From: a virus
Virus record (IMG/VR): IMGVR_UViG_3300042301_001935
Location: 1-39,280 of that record
Reading direction: 5' to 3' (one strand)
DNA length: 39,280 nt
Under the pieces are notes generated by a model, which was not told the DNA's origin, ran no database searches, and was given only the letters and a program-made list of their open reading frames with translations. The position numbers and the translations under genes are program-made. The number at the start of each line of letters is the position of its first letter. Within the stretch, counting starts at the first letter, position 1. Below are positions 1,673 through 38,538 of this stretch, piece after piece.

Positions 1673-1702
1673 TTGCAAATGTTAAAAATTCACATATCTT
1701 TG
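1673..1702 (+). promoter_or_regulatory. Consensus Bacteroidota promoter for a non-coding RNA
   Basis: TTG at 1673-1675, a 19-nt spacer, then TATCTTTG at 1695-1702. This is an exact match to the TTG-N19-TAnnTTTG promoter of Bacteroidota. It predicts a start near 1707-1709, exactly where the 5' arm of the RNA helix begins. It is one of only two plus-strand promoters I see. Confidence 0.8.
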
Positions 1703-1707
1703 TAACG

Positions 1708-1838
1708 GTCAATGTTATTGGATATTTAAGTGCTTACATTCGCGCAATGAAATTCCTCGAAAGAGGCAAAGAACCCGCAAGCAGATGTAATCATTTAATC
1801 TTGCAATAGCATTGACCCGCAAATAGCGGGTTTTTTGT
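1708..1838 (+). ncRNA. Phage-encoded structured small RNA, about 130 nt
   Basis: The transcript predicted from the promoter folds into a long imperfect rod. Its 5' end GGTCAATGTTATT (1707-1719) pairs with AATAGCATTGACC (1805-1817): 13 bp with one G-U pair. Inside, after a small loop and a bulge, TAAGTG pairs with CATTTA, then TTACAT pairs with ATGTAA. The tip is CCTC-GAAA-GAGG, a GNRA tetraloop hairpin, flanked by a large asymmetric bubble. A terminator hairpin plus T-run follows at once. No gene-length frame is present; a 20-codon ATG frame (1747-1809) lies inside the fold. I do not recognise a family. A 6S-like RNA-polymerase decoy, an antisense regulator or an RNA acting on host defence are possibilities only. 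Confidence 0.7.
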
Positions 1839-1841
1839 TTT
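1816..1841 (+). terminator. Intrinsic terminator of the small RNA
   Basis: CCCGC-AAATA-GCGGG (1816-1830) followed by TTTTTTGTTTT. The first stem base is shared with the end of the RNA's basal helix, so the two stems stack or compete. Confidence 0.85.
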
Positions 1842-2090
1842 AGTTACCTAGACCAACGAAGTAGAGGGACAAACGAAAGACCTAGAACATATCTAGGACA
1901 CCAACAGTCAAGGGTGAGGAAGATGACCAAACTTCAATCAGAAACGATTGTTGGAACGAGTAAATGCCTCTTTAGGGGCGGAGAATATACTTTTCGACTA
2001 GGGGCTTTTCTTTCTTCTCTCTTTACGTTTGTTGGTTCTTGCTTTTCTCTGTTCTTTCTTTGTTTAATCACTTCACCGCACACTTATTAA
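1842..2090. other. Non-coding stretch with several small hairpins
   Basis: No convincing coding frame. Read on the plus strand it can form CCTAG/CTAGG (near 1890-1907), CCAACAGTC/GATTGTTGG (9 bp with one G-U pair), an alternative CAATC/GATTG, and GCCTC-TTTA-GGGGC (near 1968-1981, one U-G pair). The G-U pairs would be mismatches on the other strand, so any RNA is more likely plus-strand. Positions 2005-2070 are a pyrimidine-rich tract. No clear promoter of its own; it may be read through from the RNA gene upstream. Confidence 0.4.
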
Positions 2091-8444: not shown

Positions 8445-10210
8445 TATATCAATGATTTAAGTGCTGAAATTTTCAAGTTGGTGTAAGAAGTCTTTGCTGC
8501 CGCACCCGCAAGAACGGGAGTGAAATTTAGAACTAAGTCGTCACCACTCGCCAAGATATTAGTAAAGAACGGATTAAAACTTTCAGACTCCATTGATTCT
8601 AACACCCTATTATTGTAAGTTGTGTTTTGAAGCACCCAAGTCAACATATCAGTACCTACCTTTTGGTTTCTAATTACAAGTTTAGTAGTTAGTTCAACTC
8701 CTTCGTCCGTTATTCCAAAGTTTCTGCTATACAAAGCAACGTCGCCATCTACCAAAGTTACCCTTGCTTGACCACCCGTGCTTAATGTTTCTGCTTTTAA
8801 TTGAATCTCAATAGCTTTTGAACCAAACGCTCCCTCTACCGTTGGATAATCCAAATAAGAAGCTGGAATAGTTATCGCCGCTATATTAGTGAAAGCCAAA
8901 GGAGGGTTGTTAAAACTATCGTCGTAACCGTAAAATTGTGGGGCTTGGAACAACGTCGTTTCTCCATAAGAGGCAGAAGCCGCTAACGCTTGAACTTGGT
9001 CGTACAAATCTTGAAGAACCGTTTGTGCCGAGAATCCCGCGTTGTTTATCCATTGTGGAGTGTTAGTTTCATCGCAACAACCGCAATTACAATATCCGCT
9101 TTCATCCAAGATAGTTTCTAGTTGCAAAACAGTAGCCGCATAATTAGTTAAATCACCACAAGTTTTGTACTCTTTGGCTAAAGTCACAAGTTGAAGGACA
9201 TTCAAAATAAGCGGTGTTAGACCGCTATCTACGCCTTGAACATAACTAGCTTGGAACTTATCGTAGATACTCGCTATACAAGGTGTTAAACCGCATAGAG
9301 TACCCGCGCAAGATACTACAAACTCCGCCGTTTTAGTTTCAGAGTAAGTGTAAACAAGCCCGTCTACTTGCGTAACCGTTACGTTACTTACAAGTGAGTA
9401 CGTCCACGTTCCCGTTGCTAAACTATTAATCGTCAAACTAGACAATGAAGTAGTTTCGGGGTTGGTTTCGGGTGCGGGGTTAAGCCCGTTTGGATACCAT
9501 ACCGATATTGTTCTTGAAGTGATTTCTTGACCGTTATAATCCGTTGTGTCTTGTACTATTAATTGTCCAAATTGTGTGCTTTCGCAATCAAAGGTAGTAG
9601 TAACATCTAACGTCACTATGTTACAACCGTTCCAAGTGTAAGAATCTCCCGCAAAAGCCGCCCGTGTCACATCGAATGAATAAGTACCCGTTGCAACCGC
9701 TTCGTTTACCAAAGTGGTTTGCGTCACTACAATGGTTGAGTTGTCAATTCCTTCGTCAAAAGCCGCCGTTGCAACCGTAAACGTTCCGTTGTTCTCGGTT
9801 TCTGTATTAGCCGTTGTTACCAAGCTATCTCCCGCGATTAACACTCTACCAGCGTTGGTAAACTCTAGTTCAAAAGTAGAGGTAGTTGATACCGAATTAA
9901 CAACACCCGCCGTTACCGCGTATCTCAACGAGTAAGTAAACGAGTAAGTCCCGTTCAAAATCTCTCCGTTAGAATCTAATGGCAAGTCAAACCAAGCGCT
10001 CGTTGTTGTAGAAACAAGGTTTACCAAAGGCGAACCTACCGTGCTGCCGTTGACAATTATTGCGCCCGTTGGACTATAAACATTTCCTAGTCCTTTAGCT
10101 TGATATTGAGCAAGCACAATACCTTCTGCGGTGTAGTTACTAGCGTCCACTATTCTACCCTTTTTGGTAGTGTTATTGATTTCTAAATATACGTTTGCCG
10201 TAAGTGCCAT
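8444..10210 (-). CDS. Beta-rich Ig-like virion protein with a Cys cluster
   Basis: 588 residues from ATG at 10210 (MALTANVYLEINNTTKKG). An upstream in-frame TTG at 10252 precedes the promoter box and is rejected. The first 320 residues are Thr/Ser/Val-rich with repeated strand patterns (GTYSFTYSLRYAV, GTWTYSLVSNVTV) like Ig or fibronectin folds. A middle helical part holds a cysteine cluster, CNCGCCDE, near residue 380, with four more Cys before it; this could bind metal or form disulfides. The C-terminal 180 residues are again beta-rich. It heads the operon that carries the three adaptor-like genes. A capsid-decorating or fibre role is inference. Confidence 0.6.
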   Translation of the reverse strand: MALTANVYLEINNTTKKGRIVDASNYTAEGIVLAQYQAKGLGNVYSPTGAIIVNGSTVGSPLVNLVSTTTSAWFDLPLDSNGEILNGTYSFTYSLRYAVTAGVVNSVSTTSTFELEFTNAGRVLIAGDSLVTTANTETENNGTFTVATAAFDEGIDNSTIVVTQTTLVNEAVATGTYSFDVTRAAFAGDSYTWNGCNIVTLDVTTTFDCESTQFGQLIVQDTTDYNGQEITSRTISVWYPNGLNPAPETNPETTSLSSLTINSLATGTWTYSLVSNVTVTQVDGLVYTYSETKTAEFVVSCAGTLCGLTPCIASIYDKFQASYVQGVDSGLTPLILNVLQLVTLAKEYKTCGDLTNYAATVLQLETILDESGYCNCGCCDETNTPQWINNAGFSAQTVLQDLYDQVQALAASASYGETTLFQAPQFYGYDDSFNNPPLAFTNIAAITIPASYLDYPTVEGAFGSKAIEIQLKAETLSTGGQARVTLVDGDVALYSRNFGITDEGVELTTKLVIRNQKVGTDMLTWVLQNTTYNNRVLESMESESFNPFFTNILASGDDLVLNFTPVLAGAAAKTSYTNLKISALKSLI

Positions 10211-11391: not shown

Positions 11392-11703
11392 TTAAATTTC
11401 ATTTGGTGGTATTTCTAAATGAGAGGTTTGCGACAACTCTTCTTCTAAAGCAACTACATCAACTTCTATTGCTTCGGGAGTTTTTACTAGTGCATTGTAT
11501 TGCGCTAAAGTAAGCGTCACCACATTATTAATCATATCGGGTTCTACATCACCACACATTCTTTTAGCAGTAACTCTTGCCACAATAATTGCTTCATCTA
11601 AAGTTTCTTGATAATCAGCATCTAAACATTGCAATGTTATAGTAAGTGTACTTTGATTTCCGTTAGGAAGATTAAATGTTGATGTAAGTTTAAAATAAAT
11701 CAT
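11392..11703 (-). CDS. Small protein between fibre and structural gene, unknown
   Basis: 103 residues, ATG at 11703, overlapping the fibre stop by 4 nt (coupled translation). The N-terminus is a strand pair (IYFKLTSTFNLPNG, STLTITLQCLDADY), then a helix and an acidic C-terminus (EVDVVALEEELSQ). The size and place directly after a fibre gene would suit a fibre chaperone or attachment accessory, but nothing in the sequence proves this. Confidence 0.55.
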   Translation of the reverse strand: MIYFKLTSTFNLPNGNQSTLTITLQCLDADYQETLDEAIIVARVTAKRMCGDVEPDMINNVVTLTLAQYNALVKTPEAIEVDVVALEEELSQTSHLEIPPNEI

Positions 11704-13988
11704 ATTCTTGCTCCTTTAATTGTTAAACCGATATAATCAATGTCCGCAGTAACAGAGTTAATTCCTACTGTTTTTAGAATTGCTACTAAGGGCGCTCCAC
11801 CGTAATTACTTGTTACTCTAACAAATTTGCTATCGACGGTATAGGTCATTCCTCCATCAGAGGAATATACAAATACCGTATCGCCTTGTGGATTTGGGTG
11901 GTATGTTGCTAATACAATATCAGTATTTAATGTTACTGCCAAACCACTTGTAACATCACTAACTATGGTGCTTGCTGTATTAGCAGCATAACATTTCCAA
12001 TTTGCATTTGCAGATGTACAGTACCAACCCATCATTCCCGTTATTGAAGGGGAAAGGCTATTTGCACTTGCATTCAATCCCGTTTGAAATCTAAAATCTT
12101 GGAGAGCCGTTGGAAGAGCCTCCAATCTTATTCTTGTAACAACCGCAAACTGATTGTATTGAGTTGTTCCCGTGCCAAACCCCGTGCCGCCTCTACCGTT
12201 CATTGTTATTCGAGCAAACCCCGTAGCAAGAGTACCAGTGGTAAGACCGATAGTACCTATTGAGTTACCCATAGCTGATTCATTTCTTACTAATGCTCCC
12301 GTTCCCGAAGCAAATGCATATCCAGTTTCGCCAAAATATGATGTGAAAATATTTGAACTTAAGTTATTTGGTCCACCCATATCATCAAACAATGTATGAC
12401 CATTCTTCGTGTTGCCGCTAAGTTGCGACCATTGTACGCCGTTATGAAGTAAGGTAATATCATCATTTGGGAACAAGAAATATGCGCCCCTTCCGAGAAA
12501 CTTAAATCTATTTGCGGCTGATGAATTGGTACTATTAAGTTCAAGTATTACTAGGTTATCAGTTGATGTGTTAGTTATAGTAACAATCCTTCCACTAGTA
12601 CCGTCCGTAAGCCCTGAAATAACTTGAACTTTATCTACATAGTTAGCATTAAGTTTAATAACTTTAATTACACTAGCGGCGGTATTAGTCCACCCCGTGG
12701 GAGACCAATTATCTAGTCTTGCGGTTGTTTCCGTTACTGAAATTGATGATAAGTCAACGTTAGGTGTGTTTTGATTTTCCCACAAACTTGTGGCAGAATT
12801 ATAAAATAATCCTTGAAGGTTTTGAGGGGATGTTAGTTTTACATTGTGTAGCTGACCTAACTCATATCCGTTATCTACCTTCACAAATATTTTACCATTA
12901 ACCGCGTGGGCGTGTTCCACATACCCCACAACAACCGAATGGTTGGGTGCTACGGGTTGAATATTTGTAATACTCCCCGCAGTAGTTGGCGACAAGAACA
13001 AAGTGTCGCCGTCCGCCCACGTCTCTCCTTGTAAAGACCCCGTAGTATTTATACTTCTTATTGTGCCAAGAACGGTTATAAAACCTTCTTGGTTTTGCGC
13101 TATATCCTCCGTAACAATACCTAATGTACCGTCGGAGTTTGCGCTATTATTTCCTTGTGCTAGTCTAACAAATAGCCTTTGACCCGTTGCTCCCGTAATA
13201 CGAACAACTTGATATGCCGACTCTAACAAGTCAATAAGGGGTACTGTTTTATTTACCACCCTAGCAACTTGCTCTTGACCGATTTGAAGCGTTACGTTGT
13301 TACCCTTCAACCTCAAATCCATCGTGCCGTCGGTATCGTTCCATCGCATCCTCCCTACTTGTAAAGCATTAGTAGGAGTAAGGTCAGCTTGAAAAAAATC
13401 TGACGTGATTCCGTGAGTACCCAAGTCAACATCACCCGTTGCGCCCGTATAAGGCACAAAACTTCCTCCTCCGCCAATTTGAACATACGCCGCACCGTCC
13501 CATAAGAACAAAGCTGGAGTTGCCATATCAACGTACAAGGTTTCTACAATTCCCGTTGCGGGGAAACTCGCCTCGTCCGCATACCACAAAATACTATCAG
13601 TTGCCGTATTGCAACAACCAACAAAAATATTACCAACCAAATACTCATACGCATCTCTCACCTTAGTGAGATAAGTATTCATATCGTAGTCGGGTTGAGT
13701 TAGTGCCGTGTAAGGTTTGCCGTCAATATCCGTTAAGCCTACTACCGTAAACTTGTAGAACGAACTGTTAAACCCCATTGGAGTATTAGACACTCCACTT
13801 TGATTAGGTACGCTCGTTCCACCGCCATCTTGTATCACGTAAATATAACCCCCGCTATACTGCATTTGTATTTGGGAAGTTTCACTTAGACCTAATACAC
13901 AAACACCGTCGGCATCAAAAAATAACACACGACCTTTTGCCGATTTGCTAATAGTAGCTATATCCGATTCTAGTTGTTGGAAGTACAT
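11700..13988 (-). CDS. Fibre protein with lectin-like C-terminal domain
   Basis: 762 residues, ATG at 13988. Residues about 170-215 contain YTGATGDVDLGTHGITSDFF, a motif common in phage tail and head fibres, followed by a beta-rich shaft repeatedly rich in Gly/Asn/Thr. From about residue 550 on, the pattern changes to a globular beta-sandwich-like region (FRFQTGLNAS, GMMGWYCTSANANWKCY, DTVFVYSSDGGMTYT) that looks like a concanavalin/LamG-type lectin domain. That part is the likely host-binding module. No chaperone-type autocleavage motif is obvious. The gene starts a three-gene operon behind its own terminator and promoter. Confidence 0.7.
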   Translation of the reverse strand: MYFQQLESDIATISKSAKGRVLFFDADGVCVLGLSETSQIQMQYSGGYIYVIQDGGGTSVPNQSGVSNTPMGFNSSFYKFTVVGLTDIDGKPYTALTQPDYDMNTYLTKVRDAYEYLVGNIFVGCCNTATDSILWYADEASFPATGIVETLYVDMATPALFLWDGAAYVQIGGGGSFVPYTGATGDVDLGTHGITSDFFQADLTPTNALQVGRMRWNDTDGTMDLRLKGNNVTLQIGQEQVARVVNKTVPLIDLLESAYQVVRITGATGQRLFVRLAQGNNSANSDGTLGIVTEDIAQNQEGFITVLGTIRSINTTGSLQGETWADGDTLFLSPTTAGSITNIQPVAPNHSVVVGYVEHAHAVNGKIFVKVDNGYELGQLHNVKLTSPQNLQGLFYNSATSLWENQNTPNVDLSSISVTETTARLDNWSPTGWTNTAASVIKVIKLNANYVDKVQVISGLTDGTSGRIVTITNTSTDNLVILELNSTNSSAANRFKFLGRGAYFLFPNDDITLLHNGVQWSQLSGNTKNGHTLFDDMGGPNNLSSNIFTSYFGETGYAFASGTGALVRNESAMGNSIGTIGLTTGTLATGFARITMNGRGGTGFGTGTTQYNQFAVVTRIRLEALPTALQDFRFQTGLNASANSLSPSITGMMGWYCTSANANWKCYAANTASTIVSDVTSGLAVTLNTDIVLATYHPNPQGDTVFVYSSDGGMTYTVDSKFVRVTSNYGGAPLVAILKTVGINSVTADIDYIGLTIKGARI

Positions 13989-14052: not shown

Positions 14053-14982
14053 TCAGTTCAAATATGACTTCAAAGTAGTTTCTTCGTTTGGTTGCGAAAT
14101 AAGCCAATCAACTAAATGAGTGCGCTTTTCTCCCGCGTTCTCTCCTTTAGCCAATACAAGAGTTCTATCTTCGTTGTTTACCGAAGTAATCCACCACCCG
14201 TCTTTCTCTTTCAAAATCTTAGCCTTAGCCAAGTCTTTTACTAGATTAGTCAAGTCGTCAATCTTGTTTGAGCCATCACGAGCCGACAATGCTTCAATAT
14301 TCTTCTTAGCGTGTTCGTAGCGTTCACGGAACTTATGAGCGTTGGTTTCAGATGCGTAGTCGTAAAGAGTTACTCGGTCGTCTTCCTCTACTCCGATTGA
14401 TGTCATACTCAATGCGTTGAACATTGATAAAATCCACTTGTAGTCTTTACGAGTTCCCTCTACCAATAGTTCGTTAGCAAACGTAGCCTTCATTGAAATA
14501 TCACTTGCCTTAGCTTTCGCTTTAACTGCTGGAATTTCGAATTGGTATCTTGCACCTTCACGCTTTTGCTTACCGTTAGTAAACTCGTTAGAGAAGTAAT
14601 AAAGGAAGATAATTTTTTCTAGGTCTACCGTTCCGTCAATTACCATATCGTCCTTTAACTCAAATCTACGAAGGTTATTGAATAGATAATTGCCCGCCTT
14701 ATCCGTTGAAGGAGGTGTCTTAGTATAGATAACCTCTTTTCTAATACCGTCCTTTGGGTCTATAAACATAACCTTTGGGCTAGTCAAAGAAGGAGGGGTA
14801 GTGATGCGGAAGTTGCGGACGGCGGTATCCGTTTGATTTGGAATAAACACGGGAGCAAACCTAACTACCGAGTTCGATAGCTTGATGCGAACACCGTTAG
14901 TTTGGAAGCTAGGGAACAGACCTTCTAACTCCGCAATTTCGGTTTTGAAATCCGTTTTACGTTTTTCTTCAATGTAAATCAT
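14053..14982 (-). CDS. Putative head protein after the major capsid gene
   Basis: 309 residues, ATG at 14982. The first 150 residues are mixed alpha/beta with FPSFQTNGVRIKLSN and VVRFAPVFIP; the rest is helical and charged, including KFRERYEHAKKNIEALSA and a C-terminal WWITSVNNEDRTLVLAKGE strand pair. It is a single-gene unit with its own promoter and terminator directly after the capsid gene. That fits a head completion, decoration or DNA-binding virion protein, but I do not recognise the family. Confidence 0.55.
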   Translation of the reverse strand: MIYIEEKRKTDFKTEIAELEGLFPSFQTNGVRIKLSNSVVRFAPVFIPNQTDTAVRNFRITTPPSLTSPKVMFIDPKDGIRKEVIYTKTPPSTDKAGNYLFNNLRRFELKDDMVIDGTVDLEKIIFLYYFSNEFTNGKQKREGARYQFEIPAVKAKAKASDISMKATFANELLVEGTRKDYKWILSMFNALSMTSIGVEEDDRVTLYDYASETNAHKFRERYEHAKKNIEALSARDGSNKIDDLTNLVKDLAKAKILKEKDGWWITSVNNEDRTLVLAKGENAGEKRTHLVDWLISQPNEETTLKSYLN

Positions 14983-22470: not shown

Positions 22471-23187
22471 TTATTCTCCTACTTCGGGATATATTTTTCC
22501 GCCTTTAGCATTGTGAGGCTTTTCTACCTTGTAATTTTGCATCACCCTCTCTTCTGCTCTAAGCCCTAAAGTAGCGTAAGCAACAAACTCACTTACTTCT
22601 TGCTCTAGTATCTTGCTCTTATCGTTTTCCAAAATTCTTCTCTTACAATCCTCAATCTGCCTTCGTATGTCCTCAATAGCCTTTTGTCTTGCCACTTGTT
22701 TTGTTGGGTCGTCAGGCAACTTCATACTCAACACTTCTTCCAAATCCTCTTGCGACTTTAGCATAATAGCCCAATCGCTTGAACATTGCAATGTTAGAAA
22801 AGCAGCTATCTTTTTTAAAATTAGACGGTTTTTGTTCGCCAACATATCGCTTACGTTCCTATCGTACTTATTCTCTTTGTTAGGTGCAATATTAAGCATT
22901 TCCATTATCTTAGTCTTTCGCTTTCCTATCTTTGGGTAACTGTCGATATAACCGCTTCCTAGCGCGTACATCATTATAATATACCGCATTACTACCTCGT
23001 TATCTAGCCCGTCTAGGGTTACTAGACGTACCTCTTTGCTTGTTTCCCCGTCCTCACCCACTATCTCTACTTCTAGTTCCATTTCGGTAGTCGTAAAGAC
23101 TTCTAATGAGTTTAGTTCTGCGTGAGCGGAAAACACAGACTCGCTACCAAGTCTGTATTTCCCAACCACTTCAATTTTCTTCTTCAT
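22471..23187 (-). CDS. Candidate small terminase subunit / packaging accessory
   Basis: 238 residues, ATG at 23187, overlapping the preceding stop by 17 nt. The N-terminal 110 residues are mixed (GKYRLGSESVFSAHAELN), followed by a long helical region containing KAIEDIRRQIEDCKRRILEN, a likely coiled coil, and a basic tail. The immediate upstream position to TerL with tight coupling and the coiled-coil core fit a small terminase that oligomerises and recognises the packaging site. No clear helix-turn-helix can be pointed out, so this is inference from context. Confidence 0.45.
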   Translation of the reverse strand: MKKKIEVVGKYRLGSESVFSAHAELNSLEVFTTTEMELEVEIVGEDGETSKEVRLVTLDGLDNEVVMRYIIMMYALGSGYIDSYPKIGKRKTKIMEMLNIAPNKENKYDRNVSDMLANKNRLILKKIAAFLTLQCSSDWAIMLKSQEDLEEVLSMKLPDDPTKQVARQKAIEDIRRQIEDCKRRILENDKSKILEQEVSEFVAYATLGLRAEERVMQNYKVEKPHNAKGGKIYPEVGE

Positions 23188-23863
23188 CTTGTTTGTTTAT
23201 TTGCTTTGCTAACACGTCTGCCGAGCGAAAGTAATAGAACTCGTCTAGTTCACTACGATGGTCGTCCTCCAACTTCCCCGCCACTCCACCGTTTGAGTCT
23301 ATTTTGACGGTATCTCCTACCTCGCATCGGATAATTTGTCTACCACTAGCGTATTTACCGTGAAAACTTGGCACGTACACTACTTTAAATCTATCGGGTG
23401 GTGGCTCGGATAAACTTGAAACGCTTAGGTCGATTATACTGCTTTTTACCGCTTCGGTCTTTACCGCAATACACCTATCATTCAAGGCTATCATCTTATC
23501 ACCTCTTTTCGCTAAATAGATTTCGGGGTATGGAATGATGATATACTCTTTGCCATCTACTTCAAATCTTGCGTTCTCTTTTAACAAGAGCAAGTTACCC
23601 GTAGCGTTAGCACTCCACCAAACTTTATCCCCTACCTCCAGCTCCATCTCACTCTTGAAGTCGTAACCCATTTGTAGAATATCAGTATTCACGGGTATCT
23701 TTATAACCAATCCATTACGGGCGGCAAGACTTGAACGTGTTTCGTCACCAACGGGGTTAATGTGGATTGAGCCTATCTTGGACGTTTCAAATTCATCGAC
23801 CAAAATAAGAACGCGCCCGTCTTTCATCACCATTCGGTCAAACTGTTCTTTTGTTAAATTCAT
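23171..23863 (-). CDS. Tandem double-domain GroES-like co-chaperonin
   Basis: 230 residues from ATG at 23863 (MNLTKEQFDRM); an in-frame TTG at 23896 overlaps the upstream gene and is rejected. Domain 1 (about 15-110) has the GroES order: DGRVLILVDEF, a mobile-loop-like GSIHINP, GLVIKIP, EVGDKVWW and a final KEYIIIPYPEIYL. Domain 2 (about 125-225) repeats it: LNDRCIAVKTE, a loop-like SSIIDLS, FKVVYVP, EVGDTVKIDS and FYYFRSADVLA. So it looks like two fused Cpn10 units, twice the usual 95 residues. It sits directly before the terminase genes, the place for a capsid-folding helper acting with host GroEL, like T4 gp31. A further single-domain GroES-like gene lies at 25765. Function is inferred. 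Confidence 0.6.
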   Translation of the reverse strand: MNLTKEQFDRMVMKDGRVLILVDEFETSKIGSIHINPVGDETRSSLAARNGLVIKIPVNTDILQMGYDFKSEMELEVGDKVWWSANATGNLLLLKENARFEVDGKEYIIIPYPEIYLAKRGDKMIALNDRCIAVKTEAVKSSIIDLSVSSLSEPPPDRFKVVYVPSFHGKYASGRQIIRCEVGDTVKIDSNGGVAGKLEDDHRSELDEFYYFRSADVLAKQINKQDEEEN

Positions 23864-23868
23864 TTTGT

Positions 23869-24267
23869 TTATAGGTATAATCCCAGCAATATCCAAATCA
23901 AAGCCATATATCCAATCAAAAGGAAATACAACCTAGTAGAATAGGTAAACGAAAAGATAGCGGTAGTACCGTGACTTTGCGCCTTCCATCTTAATTTATA
24001 TATTGTCGGGTTCAATTTGTTTCTAACTACGTAATAAGCCCCGTCGTGATAGAAAGGGAATGTTAGGGTTGCGGGAATAAGCATCAAATAGCTGCATTTA
24101 AGCCCGTAAATAAGTATTGTTGCTATAATACCTCGGAAAGCCGTAAAGAGTACGTGTATGTGCTTGTATTTGAATCCGAGTTCGGGACGTATGTGGAATA
24201 AAATAGCTTCTTGCTCTCCCAAGATTATCGCTACAACCGTCCATAATGTTAAGAATAACAATTCCAT
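23869..24267 (-). CDS. Four-helix membrane protein, unknown
   Basis: 132 residues, ATG at 24267. Four hydrophobic segments at about 3-20, 38-57, 62-82 and 110-131, so almost wholly embedded in the inner membrane. The loops hold aromatic and basic residues (HIRPELGFKYKHIH; KLRWKAQSHG). It is the first gene of the terminase unit. A holin or an entry/exclusion protein are possible; holins usually have one to three helices, so I keep it unnamed. Confidence 0.65.
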   Translation of the reverse strand: MELLFLTLWTVVAIILGEQEAILFHIRPELGFKYKHIHVLFTAFRGIIATILIYGLKCSYLMLIPATLTFPFYHDGAYYVVRNKLNPTIYKLRWKAQSHGTTAIFSFTYSTRLYFLLIGYMALIWILLGLYL

Positions 24268-24586: not shown

Positions 24587-25205
24587 AAATTCCAATTTGT
24601 TTGTTTAACTCCGTTCTTAATTTGATTCTTTGTTCTGCGGAATAGACTTCATCCGATTTCTCCAACTCTTTCACTATCTTCATTGCTTTAGCCCTTGCGG
24701 TTATCAATTCGGGTATAGTCAATTTTACTATGGGGTATGCTAGTTTTAGTTCAAACTTTATGTACTCAAAGTAATCCTTTCCATACACTCTCACTAAACC
24801 TTCATCGTAGCCGTCGGGGTTTCCACTTAACTCGCTATTACACTTATAACATTGAATACCGATATTATGCAAATTAAAACGAATGCTATTATTACTGCCT
24901 ACCGAGAACCTATGACCGCCTTGCGGCTTCTTTGCCATCTTGTTGCAACTAATACAAGGCTCGTCTTTATCAATTAACCTTGCTATTTTATTTATTAAGG
25001 GTTGTAGTTCGTTCTCGTAATCACCGTGACTTTTCAACTTCTCTAGCCTTTGCTTCTTCTCTACACTCCAAGCCTTCTTTGTTTCCTTAACCACCTCTTT
25101 CTTACCAAATTCTATCGCACACACTACCGAGCAAGTCTTTTGAAAAGAATTACTAGGACTAAACTTGTTTCCGCATTGCTTACATTTCTTTTCTTTAGTT
25201 CGCAC
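24576..25205 (-). CDS. ninG: NinG-like recombination nuclease
   Basis: 209 residues. It starts with a zinc-binding pair CKQCGNKF ... CSVVC (residues about 8-30), then a basic helical region, then CISCNK, a GGHRFSV motif and CYKCN, the HNH-like zinc centre of NinG/Rap (about 95-135). NinG of lambda promotes phage recombination by cutting branched DNA. The start codon is GTG at 25205; no better ATG exists in frame before the first Cys pair, and the promoter box ends 7 nt upstream. Together with NinB at 34897 it suggests a lambda-like recombination accessory set. Confidence 0.82.
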   Translation of the reverse strand: MRTKEKKCKQCGNKFSPSNSFQKTCSVVCAIEFGKKEVVKETKKAWSVEKKQRLEKLKSHGDYENELQPLINKIARLIDKDEPCISCNKMAKKPQGGHRFSVGSNNSIRFNLHNIGIQCYKCNSELSGNPDGYDEGLVRVYGKDYFEYIKFELKLAYPIVKLTIPELITARAKAMKIVKELEKSDEVYSAEQRIKLRTELNKQIGIYDN

Positions 25206-31949: not shown

Positions 31950-32642
31950 CTAATATACTAGACTCTCTATGTAGTCCAACTCTTCTTTAGAAATTTTAAC
32001 AGTTTGATGGACTTTTAATATTTTTTCTAAACTGTTCAAATCACCTTCGCCCTTAAACATCACCACACTTCCCTTCAACGGGTAAACAAACGGTCTAAAA
32101 AACAATTCAGCGCCCGTCTCACAACCCTTCATTTGATAAGGTCTAAAACCACACTTAACCATAGAAAAATGAGTGAAGCTATTTACTCCAGCTAACAATT
32201 TCAACTCTATCTTGTACCTTAATTTAATCGAATAAGCCTTCATGTCTTCTTTGACTAAATACAACGGGTTATCCATACCTACTCCCGCCATTCCTACCTT
32301 CTTATCCAGCTTTTCTAATTCTTGGAAATACTCTTTACTAGCCAAGTCATTTGCTCCTACTAAGCAATACCAATTACTTAACGGCAAGGTCTTTAGACTA
32401 TCGTTAAACTTTTCTCTTAAAATATCACTCCCCGAACTACTAGTACATAACTCTCCTTGCGGTACTTCTACATATTTAACTAAGTCAGATAGAAACGGCT
32501 CGGCAAATTTCCTAGACAACTCTCCCTCGCTTCCGCAGATATTTACGGGATAACCTAGCTTTGAATAGTGTTTTATTGCGTACTCGTAGGGCTTGTTTTG
32601 GAGTTTTCCTTTAAGGTGGATGGGTATAGCTATGCTAATCAT
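31950..32642 (-). CDS. Glycosyltransferase-like protein (GT-A type?)
   Basis: 230 residues, ATG at 32642 with a 4-nt overlap to the LpxA-like gene. The opening MISIAIPIHLKGK then YPVNICGSEGELS is the first Rossmann-like strand pair of GT-A transferases, and NWYCLVGANDLASKEYF lies where the metal-binding acidic motif is expected (here N-D rather than D-x-D). The C-terminal half is helical with GFRPYQMKGCETGAE. Coupled to an acyltransferase, it may modify a host-surface glycan or lipid. No signal peptide or membrane segment. The sugar and acceptor cannot be told. Confidence in the family is moderate. Confidence 0.5.
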   Translation of the reverse strand: MISIAIPIHLKGKLQNKPYEYAIKHYSKLGYPVNICGSEGELSRKFAEPFLSDLVKYVEVPQGELCTSSSGSDILREKFNDSLKTLPLSNWYCLVGANDLASKEYFQELEKLDKKVGMAGVGMDNPLYLVKEDMKAYSIKLRYKIELKLLAGVNSFTHFSMVKCGFRPYQMKGCETGAELFFRPFVYPLKGSVVMFKGEGDLNSLEKILKVHQTVKISKEELDYIESLVY

Positions 32643-33169
32643 ATTAGTCCTAATTTCTTTTGTAATCTCCAGTTATCCCCAATGGACTTGTGGGGTACAC
32701 CGACGTAAATAGTGAAGGGTTGTCCTTCGCCTTTGAAAAAACAATTAGCCCCTATCATTGTGCCTTCTTTTACGATAGACCATTGGTGGACGGTAGCATT
32801 AAGTCCGACGGTGGAGTGACTTCCGATATGTGAATAGCCGCCTATCTTAGCGCCGCAACTTAAAGTTACGTTGTGTTGTAATACTCCGTTATGCCCTAGA
32901 TGCGCGGATTTCATAAGCGTACAATCCCTCCCAATTATAGTGTATTCTCCCTCTTCGGTAGCGGCGTCTACGGTATTGTGACCAAACAATATACTTCCGT
33001 CGCCGATAATTACCTTTCCGTGTGGTTCACTTGGATGGCGATTTGGATATTCGGGAGCTGAACCTATTATACAATAAGCACCGATGTAAACCCCTTCACC
33101 TAGAACGACGTTGGGGTAGATAATTGCGGTGGGGTGAATAAAGGTTATCTTTTGTATTGATTCTCCCAT
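32639..33169 (-). CDS. LpxA-like acyltransferase (left-handed beta-helix)
   Basis: 176 residues from ATG at 33169 (MGESIQKITFIHPTAI). Hexapeptide repeats run through the whole chain (VVLGEG, VYIGAY, VIIGDG, TIIGRD, AKIGGY, SHIGSH, TMIGAN), giving the left-handed beta-helix. The LpxA signature is present: IHPTAI at the start, MKSAHLGHN with His90 and His93 (the latter aligned to catalytic His125 of E. coli LpxA), AVHQ-like TVHQW, and a C-terminal NWRLQKKLG that matches LpxA's 'glkRrG' end. It lacks the helical C-terminal domain of the 262-residue host enzyme. LpxA moves an acyl chain from ACP to UDP-GlcNAc, the first step of lipid A; here a related acyl transfer, maybe to a nucleotide sugar used by the next gene, is inferred. 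Upstream ATGs in frame (33217) overlap another gene and are less likely. Confidence 0.8.
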   Translation of the reverse strand: MGESIQKITFIHPTAIIYPNVVLGEGVYIGAYCIIGSAPEYPNRHPSEPHGKVIIGDGSILFGHNTVDAATEEGEYTIIGRDCTLMKSAHLGHNGVLQHNVTLSCGAKIGGYSHIGSHSTVGLNATVHQWSIVKEGTMIGANCFFKGEGQPFTIYVGVPHKSIGDNWRLQKKLGLI

Positions 33170-33324
33170 CCTAGTTCTTTTAGTTCTGCGTAAATATTTT
33201 TCAATTCTATTTTCCATAACCGTTGCACAATAGGTGTGTCTTCGGCTAATTCGATTTCGCATAGAATATTTATTCTAAGTTCGAGTAGATGCTCGATACG
33301 GCGGTAACTTTCGTCGTAACTCAT
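33145..33324 (-). CDS. 59-aa helical acidic protein, unknown
   Basis: ATG at 33324 (MSYDESYRRIEHLLELRIN), overlapping the zinc-ribbon stop by 3 nt and the LpxA-like start by 25 nt. Amphipathic helices (RRIEHLLELRINILCEIELA; WKIELKNIYAELKEL). Its frame explains the DNA upstream of the LpxA-like gene better than an N-terminal extension of that gene. Confidence 0.65.
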   Translation of the reverse strand: MSYDESYRRIEHLLELRINILCEIELAEDTPIVQRLWKIELKNIYAELKELGWENQYKR

Positions 33325-35322: not shown

Positions 35323-35542
35323 CTGTTATTGATTTTTGTATCCTATCAAACAAATCTTGTAGGTCTTGTACGGAGTCTATTGCCCACCCTTCGGTTTTTA
35401 AGACGTAGAAACAACTTTTGTCGTTGTCAATGCCCAGTGAAGATTCGCATTCAATGATAAGTGTTTCGCACCCATTGTTGGGGGAAACGCAATTTGCTTC
35501 TTGGGAAAACTGAAATGTAGCTTTTTCTAATTTTGGTTTCAT
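35303..35542 (-). CDS. 79-aa protein, unknown
   Basis: ATG at 35542, overlapping upstream by 4 nt and downstream by 20 nt. Cys-containing strand region (CVSPNNGCETLIIECESS) then a helix (DSVQDLQDLFDRIQKSI). Not recognised. Confidence 0.55.
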   Translation of the reverse strand: MKPKLEKATFQFSQEANCVSPNNGCETLIIECESSLGIDNDKSCFYVLKTEGWAIDSVQDLQDLFDRIQKSITDAQIPS

Positions 35543-35934
35543 TCCTCACCTCCTTTGATTGTTAGTTCTTCTCCCGTCAAGGCAAAGTAGAGATTTTGGA
35601 GTTGGTGGACGTGTTCAGTTCCGTTAAATGCTAAATCGGTATCTGAACCGCTTAGGAATATTTGTGTCACACTGAACTTTGAAATCTTAACATTCAGTAA
35701 TTCTTTTGGACACCAAAATCCATTTAAGCATTTATCAAACCCAAACTTCAATAGCCATTCTTCGGTTAATGGGATTGGTTTAACATCATCTTGTAAACTG
35801 AATGACTCCCATTTATAAGAACCATCGACTGCTGAAAGACCAACTACTCCTTTAGCGTGTACACGCATTACTTGGCATACTTTTCCTTCAATATCTAATA
35901 CGTTATTTAATACTCTCAATTCTTGTGCTTTCAT
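35539..35934 (-). CDS. Bacteroidota phage protein with PLTEEWLLKFGF motif
   Basis: 131 residues, ATG at 35934. Pattern ELRVLNNVLDIEGKVCQVMRV, then PIPLTEEWLLKFGFDK, then a strand region ending VHQLQNLYFALTGEEL. I recall this family as common in phages and prophages of Bacteroidota with no known function. Four-base overlaps to both neighbours. Confidence 0.75.
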   Translation of the reverse strand: MKAQELRVLNNVLDIEGKVCQVMRVHAKGVVGLSAVDGSYKWESFSLQDDVKPIPLTEEWLLKFGFDKCLNGFWCPKELLNVKISKFSVTQIFLSGSDTDLAFNGTEHVHQLQNLYFALTGEELTIKGGEE

Positions 35935-36209
35935 ATTTTAGATAGTTTTTTAATGTGTTTGTTTAGCCATTTAACACGGTGTTCAATATTGTCTATTGAC
36001 CAATAAAAACGACCACCCCAATTTTCAAAAGCATTCCAACTACTAAACATTGAGGGTCTGTTGTATCTGATGTACCTAGAAATAACAGCGTGTTCTTGAC
36101 TAGTAATAATACGTTGAGAATACAATCTGTCATTAAGATAACAAAGCCCTCCTAGAAGCTGGTGTATGTTAGATAGCATAACTTCAAGAAGTTGTTTTTC
36201 AGTTCTCAT
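35931..36209 (-). CDS. 92-aa helical protein, Bacteroidota phage type
   Basis: ATG at 36209. Helical, with YIRYNRPSMFSSWNAFENWGGRFYWSID and RVKWLNKHIKKL, a pattern I recall from other Bacteroidota phages. Four-base overlaps on both sides. Unknown function. Confidence 0.65.
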   Translation of the reverse strand: MRTEKQLLEVMLSNIHQLLGGLCYLNDRLYSQRIITSQEHAVISRYIRYNRPSMFSSWNAFENWGGRFYWSIDNIEHRVKWLNKHIKKLSKI

Positions 36210-36844
36210 TGCTCACCTCCTTCTTTATTTGGTTTTATGTTGTAATAGTAACTATCGGAATCCTCTGAAACCCACTTGTCGGATTGAGCCTCAACCGACT
36301 CAATGTGAGTGTCAACCTTGAACGTAGAAGGCTCCATAGGGAATTGTTTTGTTACCCAGTTGGAGTCTCTCCAAAATATTCTATTGTTAGGCTGACAAAG
36401 CAAGTACCCATCATCAGCTATGAGTATATGCCCGCACTTGTAGTCAGAAGGTTCATCCGAGTACGGGTTTTTATACCAATCAACAGTCATAAGGTAGGTA
36501 GCCCATATCTTGCTACCGTCTTTTAAGACCACTTGACACCTTTTCTCGTAAAGATAGTCGTAAGTAATTACGCTTACATTTTCAGAGAAACAATCCCATA
36601 GTTGCTTGAAGTGAAACGGAATGTCATTCTTAGGCTCAACCATAAATATCTCGGATATAGGAACTCTTGACCGTAGCATACCGTATTCAGTCATAACGTG
36701 GAATGTAAGTATTTTACCAGCTACCGACTGTATAGCAAAAGCATAGGCTTTGTGGTATGTGCCTTCATCCTCTTCCCTTTTAGTGAAGTGAGATGCCCTT
36801 ACATAGCACTTAAACAGTTCTATGTTTTCGTTTAGTTTACTCAT
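36206..36844 (-). CDS. 212-aa protein, unknown
   Basis: ATG at 36844. Strand-rich (KAYAFAIQSVAGKILTFHVM; KRCQVVLKDGSKIWATYLM), many Trp and Tyr, acidic C-terminus. No enzyme motif. Four-base overlaps on both sides place it firmly in the accessory operon. Confidence 0.65.
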   Translation of the reverse strand: MSKLNENIELFKCYVRASHFTKREEDEGTYHKAYAFAIQSVAGKILTFHVMTEYGMLRSRVPISEIFMVEPKNDIPFHFKQLWDCFSENVSVITYDYLYEKRCQVVLKDGSKIWATYLMTVDWYKNPYSDEPSDYKCGHILIADDGYLLCQPNNRIFWRDSNWVTKQFPMEPSTFKVDTHIESVEAQSDKWVSEDSDSYYYNIKPNKEGGEQ

Positions 36845-37529: not shown

Positions 37530-38159
37530 TTAAAACACATCATTTATAACATCCCTAAACCGCTGGTCAGTAACACCCGTAGTCGTAACCGCAAAACCAC
37601 TTCCCCTCTCTTCCTTCTTCTCTAAAGTAACGTTGCTATCATTAACTACTACATTCTCTTCAAAGCACCTCAACCTACTACCCGAAAAAAACAATGAAGG
37701 GTCGATGAAGTAAACGTCCTTAATCTCGGTAGGCAGTATTATCTTACAAGACTGCAACTCACCTAAAGCGGTCTTTACCGTGTTCAAACTTACATTAGCA
37801 TCGCGCATATACTTAGGACGGTTAAGCCAATACACGTCTTGGTTAGACTCAACAGTATAAACTATCCAAAACAATAATCTCAAACTACCAGCAGACAACC
37901 CTAATACCCGCTCCCGATTATCCTTACTAGCAAACAAAGTAGTTTTAACGTCCCTCTCAACCAAGTAAGTTATCTTACCCACCTCACCACTATCCTTATA
38001 CCCAACACCCTCTTTCCTTATCGCCTTAATCTCCAAAGACGATAGAAACGGATTAACAGTCCTAACCAAATTAATGTTCGGCTTAGCATCAGAACGACTA
38101 CGTTTAGTGCTAGTGTCAGAAAACTGATAATTGACACTTTCATCTTCTCTTACTCCCAT
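37530..38159 (-). CDS. RepL-like plasmid-type replication protein
   Basis: 209 residues, ATG at 38159. A winged-helix core at about 90-160 (LRLLFWIVYTVE; DANVSLNTVKTALGELQSCKI; VYFIDPSLFFSGSR). The final motif 'YFIDPsLFF.GsR' is the one I associate with RepL-type replication proteins of plasmids and Bacteroidota phages. It ends in a Thr/Val-rich tail. The start of the gene overlaps one of three palindromic sites that also occur upstream, so it may bind there to control itself or start replication. A second initiator-type gene lies at 29379; which one drives replication cannot be told. Confidence 0.6.
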   Translation of the reverse strand: MGVREDESVNYQFSDTSTKRSRSDAKPNINLVRTVNPFLSSLEIKAIRKEGVGYKDSGEVGKITYLVERDVKTTLFASKDNRERVLGLSAGSLRLLFWIVYTVESNQDVYWLNRPKYMRDANVSLNTVKTALGELQSCKIILPTEIKDVYFIDPSLFFSGSRLRCFEENVVVNDSNVTLEKKEERGSGFAVTTTGVTDQRFRDVINDVF

Positions 38160-38327
38160 ATAGCTTGTATGTGTTTTAGGTTAATTAGCATCAAGGCTTA
38201 TTATATATATGTAGGGTTACTAATATCCGCTTGCGCTACACAACCCTACTCTAGTAACACTTTGCTAAGATATGTTAAAATCAGAAAATTGACAAGTGTT
38301 GTGAATAAATAGTGTCAAAAAATTGAC
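38114..38327. repeat. Three related palindromic sites near the RepL-like gene
   Basis: TGTCAGAAAACTGATA (38114-38129, within the gene start), TCAGAAAATTGACA (38281-38294) and TGTCAAAAAATTGACG (38313-38328) share TGTCA-rAAAA-yTGACr, an inverted repeat around A4. Candidate operator or origin sites for the RepL-like protein. Confidence 0.55.
38211..38258. repeat. Nested inverted repeats, possible pseudoknot
   Basis: GTAGGGTT (38211-38218) with AACCCTAC (38242-38249), and GTTACTA (38216-38222) with TAGTAAC (38252-38258), arranged a-b-a'-b' with shared bases. Either two alternative hairpins or a pseudoknot, some 50 bp upstream of the RepL-like start. Confidence 0.55.
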
Positions 38328-38415
38328 GGCATTGTGTAAGTGATTGAACTAGAGGTGTTAACTGATAGCTAGGTGAGAGTGAAAAGTGATGGTAGTGGTC
38401 AGATTGAAATGGGAG

Positions 38416-38538
38416 AAAAGTGAACGTACTAAGCGGGGATAGAAACGAACAGTAGGGATAGTCGAATTAGTTTTTAATAAAAGTGAACGTACCGAAAAGG
38501 AATAGCGTGAAATGGTTTTGGGAAAATATGAACGTATG
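38416..38538 (+). repeat. Three spaced direct repeats AAAAGTGAACGTA
   Basis: AAAAGTGAACGTACT at 38416-38430, AAAAGTGAACGTACC at 38479-38493 and AAAATATGAACGTATG at 38523-38538. Spacings of 63 and 44 bp are near whole helical turns. Function unknown. Confidence 0.6.

Follow-up and report, generated by a model that had tools for sequence, protein, structure and literature searches.

The plus strand of the window, the 39,280-bp IMG/VR viral contig analysed here, carries at 1673-1841 a unit made up of a promoter, a rod-like RNA and an intrinsic terminator. We tentatively propose that this element serves a small accessory (moron-type) unit as its attenuator leader, working through RNA alone, and would by default release an RNA of about 130 nt. 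An attenuator-controlled moron fits the combination of a promoter, a self-terminating leader with an antiterminator, a small ORF and the borders of an accessory island. The analysis is computational throughout, with the main RNA known from one sequence only; it directly gives the promoter, the rod and the terminator, the complementarity of the antiterminator strand, a predicted change of fold and the setting in an island. The first-pass annotation of this DNA had described an autonomous unit giving a ~130-nt plus-strand RNA; the sequence agrees with the unit, and the roles suggested for it were not supported. It had overlooked three things, the strand complementary to the terminator, the ORF that follows and the setting in an accessory island, which together favor a cis-acting attenuator.

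Portal and terminase proteins encoded in the window belong to families of the head-and-packaging class, and its distant portal relatives are Flavobacterium, Cellulophaga and Maribacter phages; the virus is of the flavobacterial type. Nearly all genes, and all long ORFs, lie on the minus strand, so that the RNA unit is indeed placed opposite to them, as had been claimed. The closest relative is IMGVR_UViG_3300017754_002058 (L002, also G001), a record of 66,226 bp with 92% protein identity. Its ends overlap by about 123 bp, and it is therefore apparently a complete circle. Since the two are about 80-98% identical across their shared segments, the window represents about 60% of a genome of about 66 kb. 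Six segments of the window differ from L002 between flanks matching at about 80-98% (8461-9066, 11421-12840, 24587-25095, 32002-33322, 35325-36213 and 37537-38482) and are accessory or receptor-related islands. A 207-aa hexapeptide-repeat acyltransferase-like protein (32639-33262, minus) lies within a segment missing from L002. Elsewhere on the minus strand, a 241-aa protein (23171-23896) has a GroES-like PHROG match at its C-terminal part (6e-6), and a 209-aa protein (37530-38159) matches the plasmid replication family RepL (1e-5, passing Pfam's cut-off). The tail-type gene next to the RNA unit, also on the minus strand, contains two 145-bp direct repeats, 514-658 and 670-814, that are 83% identical.

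The promoter (1673-1702) is of the Bacteroidetes type, with a -33 TTG at 1673-1675, a spacer of 19 nt and the -7 box TATCTTTG at 1695-1702. The match to TTG-N19-TAnnTTTG reported earlier is exact, and five such matches are seen in the window where 0.84 are expected. With the start placed 4-6 nt past the -7 box, the predicted RNA spans 1707-1837 and comprises the rod and the terminator (about 125-131 nt). The fold of 1673-1841 has a minimum free energy of -46.9 kcal/mol (z = -3.9), equalled by none of 200 shuffles. The closing helix H1 begins at the predicted transcription start and pairs 1707-1720 with 1804-1817; a helix had been recognized at this site in the first pass, and its length is 14 bp, including one U.G pair, rather than 13 bp. 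Of 2000 shuffles, 2 joined both ends by a contiguous stem as long as H1. Within the rod, 1726-1740 supplies the 5' strands of helices H2 and H3, which pair with 1784-1798; a 9/10-nt interior loop sits near the tip of the rod, and the terminal hairpin has just 4 bp. The 3' strand of H1 has 1814-1817 in common with the stem of the intrinsic terminator (1814-1837), GACCCGC-AAATA-GCGGGTT plus a U-tract, in which 1814-1820 pairs with 1826-1832. A terminator after the 3' arm was thus correctly called, and the same type is common in Flavobacteriales. A full promoter followed by an intrinsic terminator within 330 nt occurs at few loci in about 0.71 Mb of related phage DNA, as does a promoter followed by a terminator in scans of about 0.7-0.8 Mb; among the promoter-terminator loci scanned, 1673-1841 has the densest fold and the sole helix beginning at the predicted start site.

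A long inverted repeat inside an accessory island missing from relatives could also work as DNA, as a replication, packaging or recombination site, or could belong to a decaying mobile insertion, with the RNA incidental. However, folding clearly favors the plus-strand RNA over the minus (-40.1 versus -31.4 for the rod), and the promoter and terminator are exactly placed. No terminal repeats typical of a mobile element are found around the island, and relatives manage without the inverted repeat. We consider this explanation very unlikely. The size of the RNA, its rod shape and the interior loop near its tip invite comparison with 6S RNA, a decoy that would bind the host RNA polymerase, and 6S mimicry was among the roles suggested in the first pass. 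6S-Flavo (RF01685) indeed shares with the main RNA a flavobacterial setting and a rod of about 110 nt. Yet the RNA gives no covariance match to 6S or 6S-Flavo even at E <= 10, it is without the conserved ACUCAAC...GGAGUUU ends of 6S-Flavo, and its own covariance model misses the host 6S-Flavo loci. The RF01685 model works as a positive control, finding the 6S-Flavo of six Flavobacteriaceae genomes and not this RNA, and we reject 6S membership on that ground. Instead of a central open bubble between closing and apical stems, the RNA has its large loop beside the 4-bp tip hairpin. As a mechanism 6S mimicry is unlikely, and a polymerase decoy of this kind seems to us highly improbable.

An Rfam scan, which had been recommended, assigned the RNA at 1673-1841 to no family at the cut-off, 6S-Flavo included. 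Sub-threshold matches to Flavo-1 (which overlaps the neighboring gene's terminator), Trp_leader and isrK were each below cut-off and were set aside. DNA, pattern and covariance-model searches of 32-33 related phage records gave no second copy, nor did a helix-pattern search of IMG/VR. Only chance matches were returned from INPHARED, and sets of 296 and 396 Flavobacteriales genomes gave no homologue of the RNA, only generic CCCGC-loop-GCGGG terminators or 22-24-bit fragments.

What, then, argues for a leader? The strand CAAAGAACCCGC (1767-1778), unpaired at 1767-1776 within the rod's large interior loop and weakly paired at 1777-1778, is complementary to GCGGGUUUUUUG (1826-1837), the 3' arm of the terminator plus the U-tract, at 12 of 12 positions with one G.U. 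The duplex has an energy of -19.1 kcal/mol compared with a shuffle mean of -8.7 (0 of 1000, with the upstream sequence shuffled), although its significance is somewhat inflated by selection, the match having been first noticed in an inverted-repeat list and then tested. None of the other terminator-like sites in related phages, 102 in all, has so strong a pairing; the next is at -13.1 and the mean is -6.3 (sd 2.7). When the full RNA is folded, the rod with the terminator reaches -44.3 and the forced antiterminator -33.5. Deleting the 5' end as far as 1733, so that at least 26 bases at the start can no longer pair, leaves the antiterminator as the most stable predicted structure, with no terminator hairpin in it. 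The unit has two features of a transcription attenuator, an intrinsic terminator in a 5' leader after the promoter and, in the predicted folds, a mutually exclusive antiterminator and terminator. The rod arises earlier than the terminator and is by far the more stable structure, so that switching would require a strong trigger. One candidate, which is speculative, is a possible mini leader ORF on the 5' strand of the rod (1712-1729; AUG UUA UUG GAU AUU UAA, encoding MLLDI), read directly from the sequence, which could recruit a ribosome that frees the antiterminator strand.

The 12-bp match would go unexplained if the RNA were a stand-alone trans-acting sRNA, an RNA moron whose ~130-nt rod acts on host or phage RNA or protein, with the ORF and the antiterminator incidental. 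In favor of such an sRNA are the complete promoter-RNA-terminator unit with its helix starting at +1, the strong and stable rod whose terminated product is predicted by default, and a downstream protein family that is unrecognizable. Against it, in addition to the match, no target was found, the pairing of the apical loop with neighboring sequence is not significant, and the RNA is without conservation. We regard a stand-alone sRNA as possible, if on the unlikely side. Because the ~130-nt RNA is the default product, a Northern blot would see an "sRNA" under either reading.

The attenuator proposed here would control a candidate small membrane-protein ORF at 1923-2090 (+), of 55 aa from the ATG at 1923 (58 aa from the GTG at 1914), which ends with its stop at the right border of the island. 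The purine-rich GGGTGAGGAAG precedes the ATG, and an ORF as long as this one is found in 1.25% of shuffles. Its Kyte-Doolittle maximum over 19 aa is 2.04, which marks a hydrophobic, membrane-like segment, with the caveat that T-rich sequence readily yields hydrophobic codons. Searches of Pfam, PHROGs, PADLOC, INPHARED, GTDB and IMG/VR gave no homologue, and a match in L200 was discarded as a 26-nt chance match antisense to another gene, selected on the same pattern. We treat the ORF as a putative gene. The reading of 1842-2088 as a second structured RNA was unconvincing (z = -1.6; 14 of 200 shuffles). Beyond the ORF, the inverted repeat at 2097-2124, flagged on the minus strand only, is the terminator of the convergent gene 2457-2143 (minus) and may also weakly halt plus-strand read-through.

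The order of elements is that of isrK-orf45, in which a promoter, a short RNA and a leaky terminator are followed by a small ORF (PMC4825925). IsrK of prophage Gifsy-1 (PMC4825925; RF01394) resembles the unit in being a short RNA carried by a phage and flanked by a promoter and a terminator of its own, with read-through to a small ORF and alternative structures. By this model, the short form would be a trans sRNA and the read-through form the mRNA of the ORF, with the short form controlling the long one. Consistent with it, 1755-1768 can pair with 1965-1978 at -18.3 kcal/mol, but this pairing between the short RNA and the read-through form (-19.6 kcal/mol as tested) is equalled in 32 of 300 shuffles. 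By the same count the pairing of the apical loop with downstream sequence is not above chance, and the antisense role put forward in the first pass gained no support. The Rfam isrK score is 15.7 bits for a cut-off of 50, and the phage and the host phylum are different. An IsrK-like dual RNA is in our judgment quite unlikely.

The attenuator leader and its putative gene lie within a moron-like accessory island of about 427 nt (1661-2087), flanked by the tail-type gene that starts at 1633 (minus) and a 104-aa gene (2457-2143, minus). L002 has 72 nt in its place, with about 91-94% identity on both sides, and two outgroup phages (L036 and L038) have a short unrelated spacer at this position. The island is one of several accessory islands separating the window from L002, and among the Flavobacteriales genomes searched no source genome for it was found. 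Immediately beside it, a -7-like box TAAATTTG of the gene starting at 1633 (1653-1660, minus) is divergent from the RNA promoter and is conserved as TATATTTG in L002. A minus-strand reading of the RNA as the leader of the tail gene was rejected, as this box (1660-1653) gives the tail gene its own start signal downstream of the RNA. The 72 nt of L002 align co-linearly to the promoter and the 5' arm (1658-1739), with a score of 13 compared with a shuffle mean of -2.4 (0 of 1000), and when all 78,416 windows of the contig are scored, this position comes out among the best three loci. The promoter in L002 is broken, the TTG being missing and the -7 box one base too long. The co-linear alignment makes it probable that the common ancestor already had the RNA unit and that L002 is losing it; the alternative is that it was gained in the lineage of the window alone. 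The first-pass annotation had counted on related phages to keep the pairing or the promoter. The relatives lack the unit, which to that extent goes against the annotation, and L002 seems to have lost it.

Phage morons, accessory loci with their own promoter and terminator (PMC7067206), likewise lie on the opposite strand between conserved late genes and are missing in relatives. The unit has both signals and is inserted between genes that are adjacent in relatives; it differs from them in that its chief predicted product is an RNA, the protein product being a candidate. With attenuators such as the leaders of amino-acid operons it shares a promoter, a structured leader, a mutually exclusive antiterminator and terminator, a small ORF on the 3' side and possibly a mini leader peptide on the first strand. 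Unlike those leaders, it lies in a phage accessory island, has no biosynthetic gene and no homologue, and its downstream gene is a candidate.

How might the proposed attenuator work? We infer that the unit is transcribed and switches in vivo as follows. On the strand opposite to the phage structural genes, RNA polymerase would start at about 1707 from the host-type promoter. By default the nascent RNA would fold as the rod, the terminator hairpin (1814-1837) would form and a stable RNA of about 130 nt would be released. Occupation of about 1707-1732, the rod's 5' strand, by a ribosome on the mini-ORF, by a protein or by another RNA would free 1767-1778 to pair with the 3' arm of the terminator and the U-tract (1826-1837). 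With the terminator removed, transcription would enter the 55-aa ORF with its membrane-like segment.

In satellite phage P4 the CI RNA, like immunity RNAs of other phages, acts by premature transcription termination of a leader (PMC4825925). The main RNA is alike in being a phage RNA that would work through premature leader termination, but it does not lie before replication genes and is without seqA/seqC-like repeats. A nearer analogue is the RNA at 30446-30314 (minus), exposed by the same promoter-terminator architecture scan, in which a TATATTTG promoter box, a hairpin, a small hairpin and a terminator are followed by the start codon of an HTH_36-type gene (30302-29379). Its fold has a z of -3.6. 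This second RNA is found in seven phages: the window, L159 at 7324 (-), L165 at 19818 (-), L169 at 17675 (-), L171 at 8430 (+), L038 at 526 (+) and L035 at 6483 (+). An HTH-type gene of 270-314 aa directly follows it in six of the seven, and in L035 another gene lies further on. Judging by an HTH_36/DnaD-like match and a neighboring BT4734-like gene, they are probably replication genes. Each of the seven phages has first-hairpin and terminator loops that complement one another, in five different, covarying pairs of sequences: GUAGAGC/GCUCUAC, GGACUAGC/GCUAGUCC, GUACGAGC/GCUCGUAC (three phages), GUAAGGAAU/AUUCCUUAC and CGACGAC/GUCGUCG. When 102 terminators are ranked by loop complementarity, these seven loci are the top seven. 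Between the window and L002 the flanks of the second RNA are nearly identical and the core is replaced. The RNA has no Rfam match above a family cut-off and none in INPHARED. The matched variable loops and the core swapped between near-identical flanks suggest, by analogy, a specificity determinant acting via termination, reminiscent of phage P4 immunity; the module looks like an RNA specificity/immunity or copy-control switch. A promoter-hairpin-terminator unit without matched loops in the relative L019 (17113-17222, +) is a possible further small RNA, and short, weakly folded promoter-to-terminator stretches with 49-63 nt from box to terminator occur in the relatives G005 at 50690 (-), G006 at 38532 (-) and G002 at 14221 (+).

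A wider picture, which we offer with considerable doubt, is that the phages of this clade may control genes via promoter-RNA-terminator modules, each complete in itself, whose terminator is contacted by a loop lying upstream of it. In this picture the main RNA would be a dual sRNA and leader with a terminator-stripping antiterminator in a moron. The HTH-gene module, whose matched loops are hypervariable, would serve as a type-specific switch made of RNA alone, for immunity or copy control, and would be an analogue of the P4 CI RNA without being related to it. To our knowledge, termination-level RNA switching of accessory genes has hardly been described for Bacteroidota phages. If the attenuator reading is right, Bacteroidota phages would possess small regulatory RNA units for switching accessory genes at transcription termination, and a phage "sRNA gene" that folds strongly and runs from promoter to terminator can turn out to be a leader switch and not a mimic of a host RNA. 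With the conserved second RNA, RNA-based phage specificity becomes open to direct testing.
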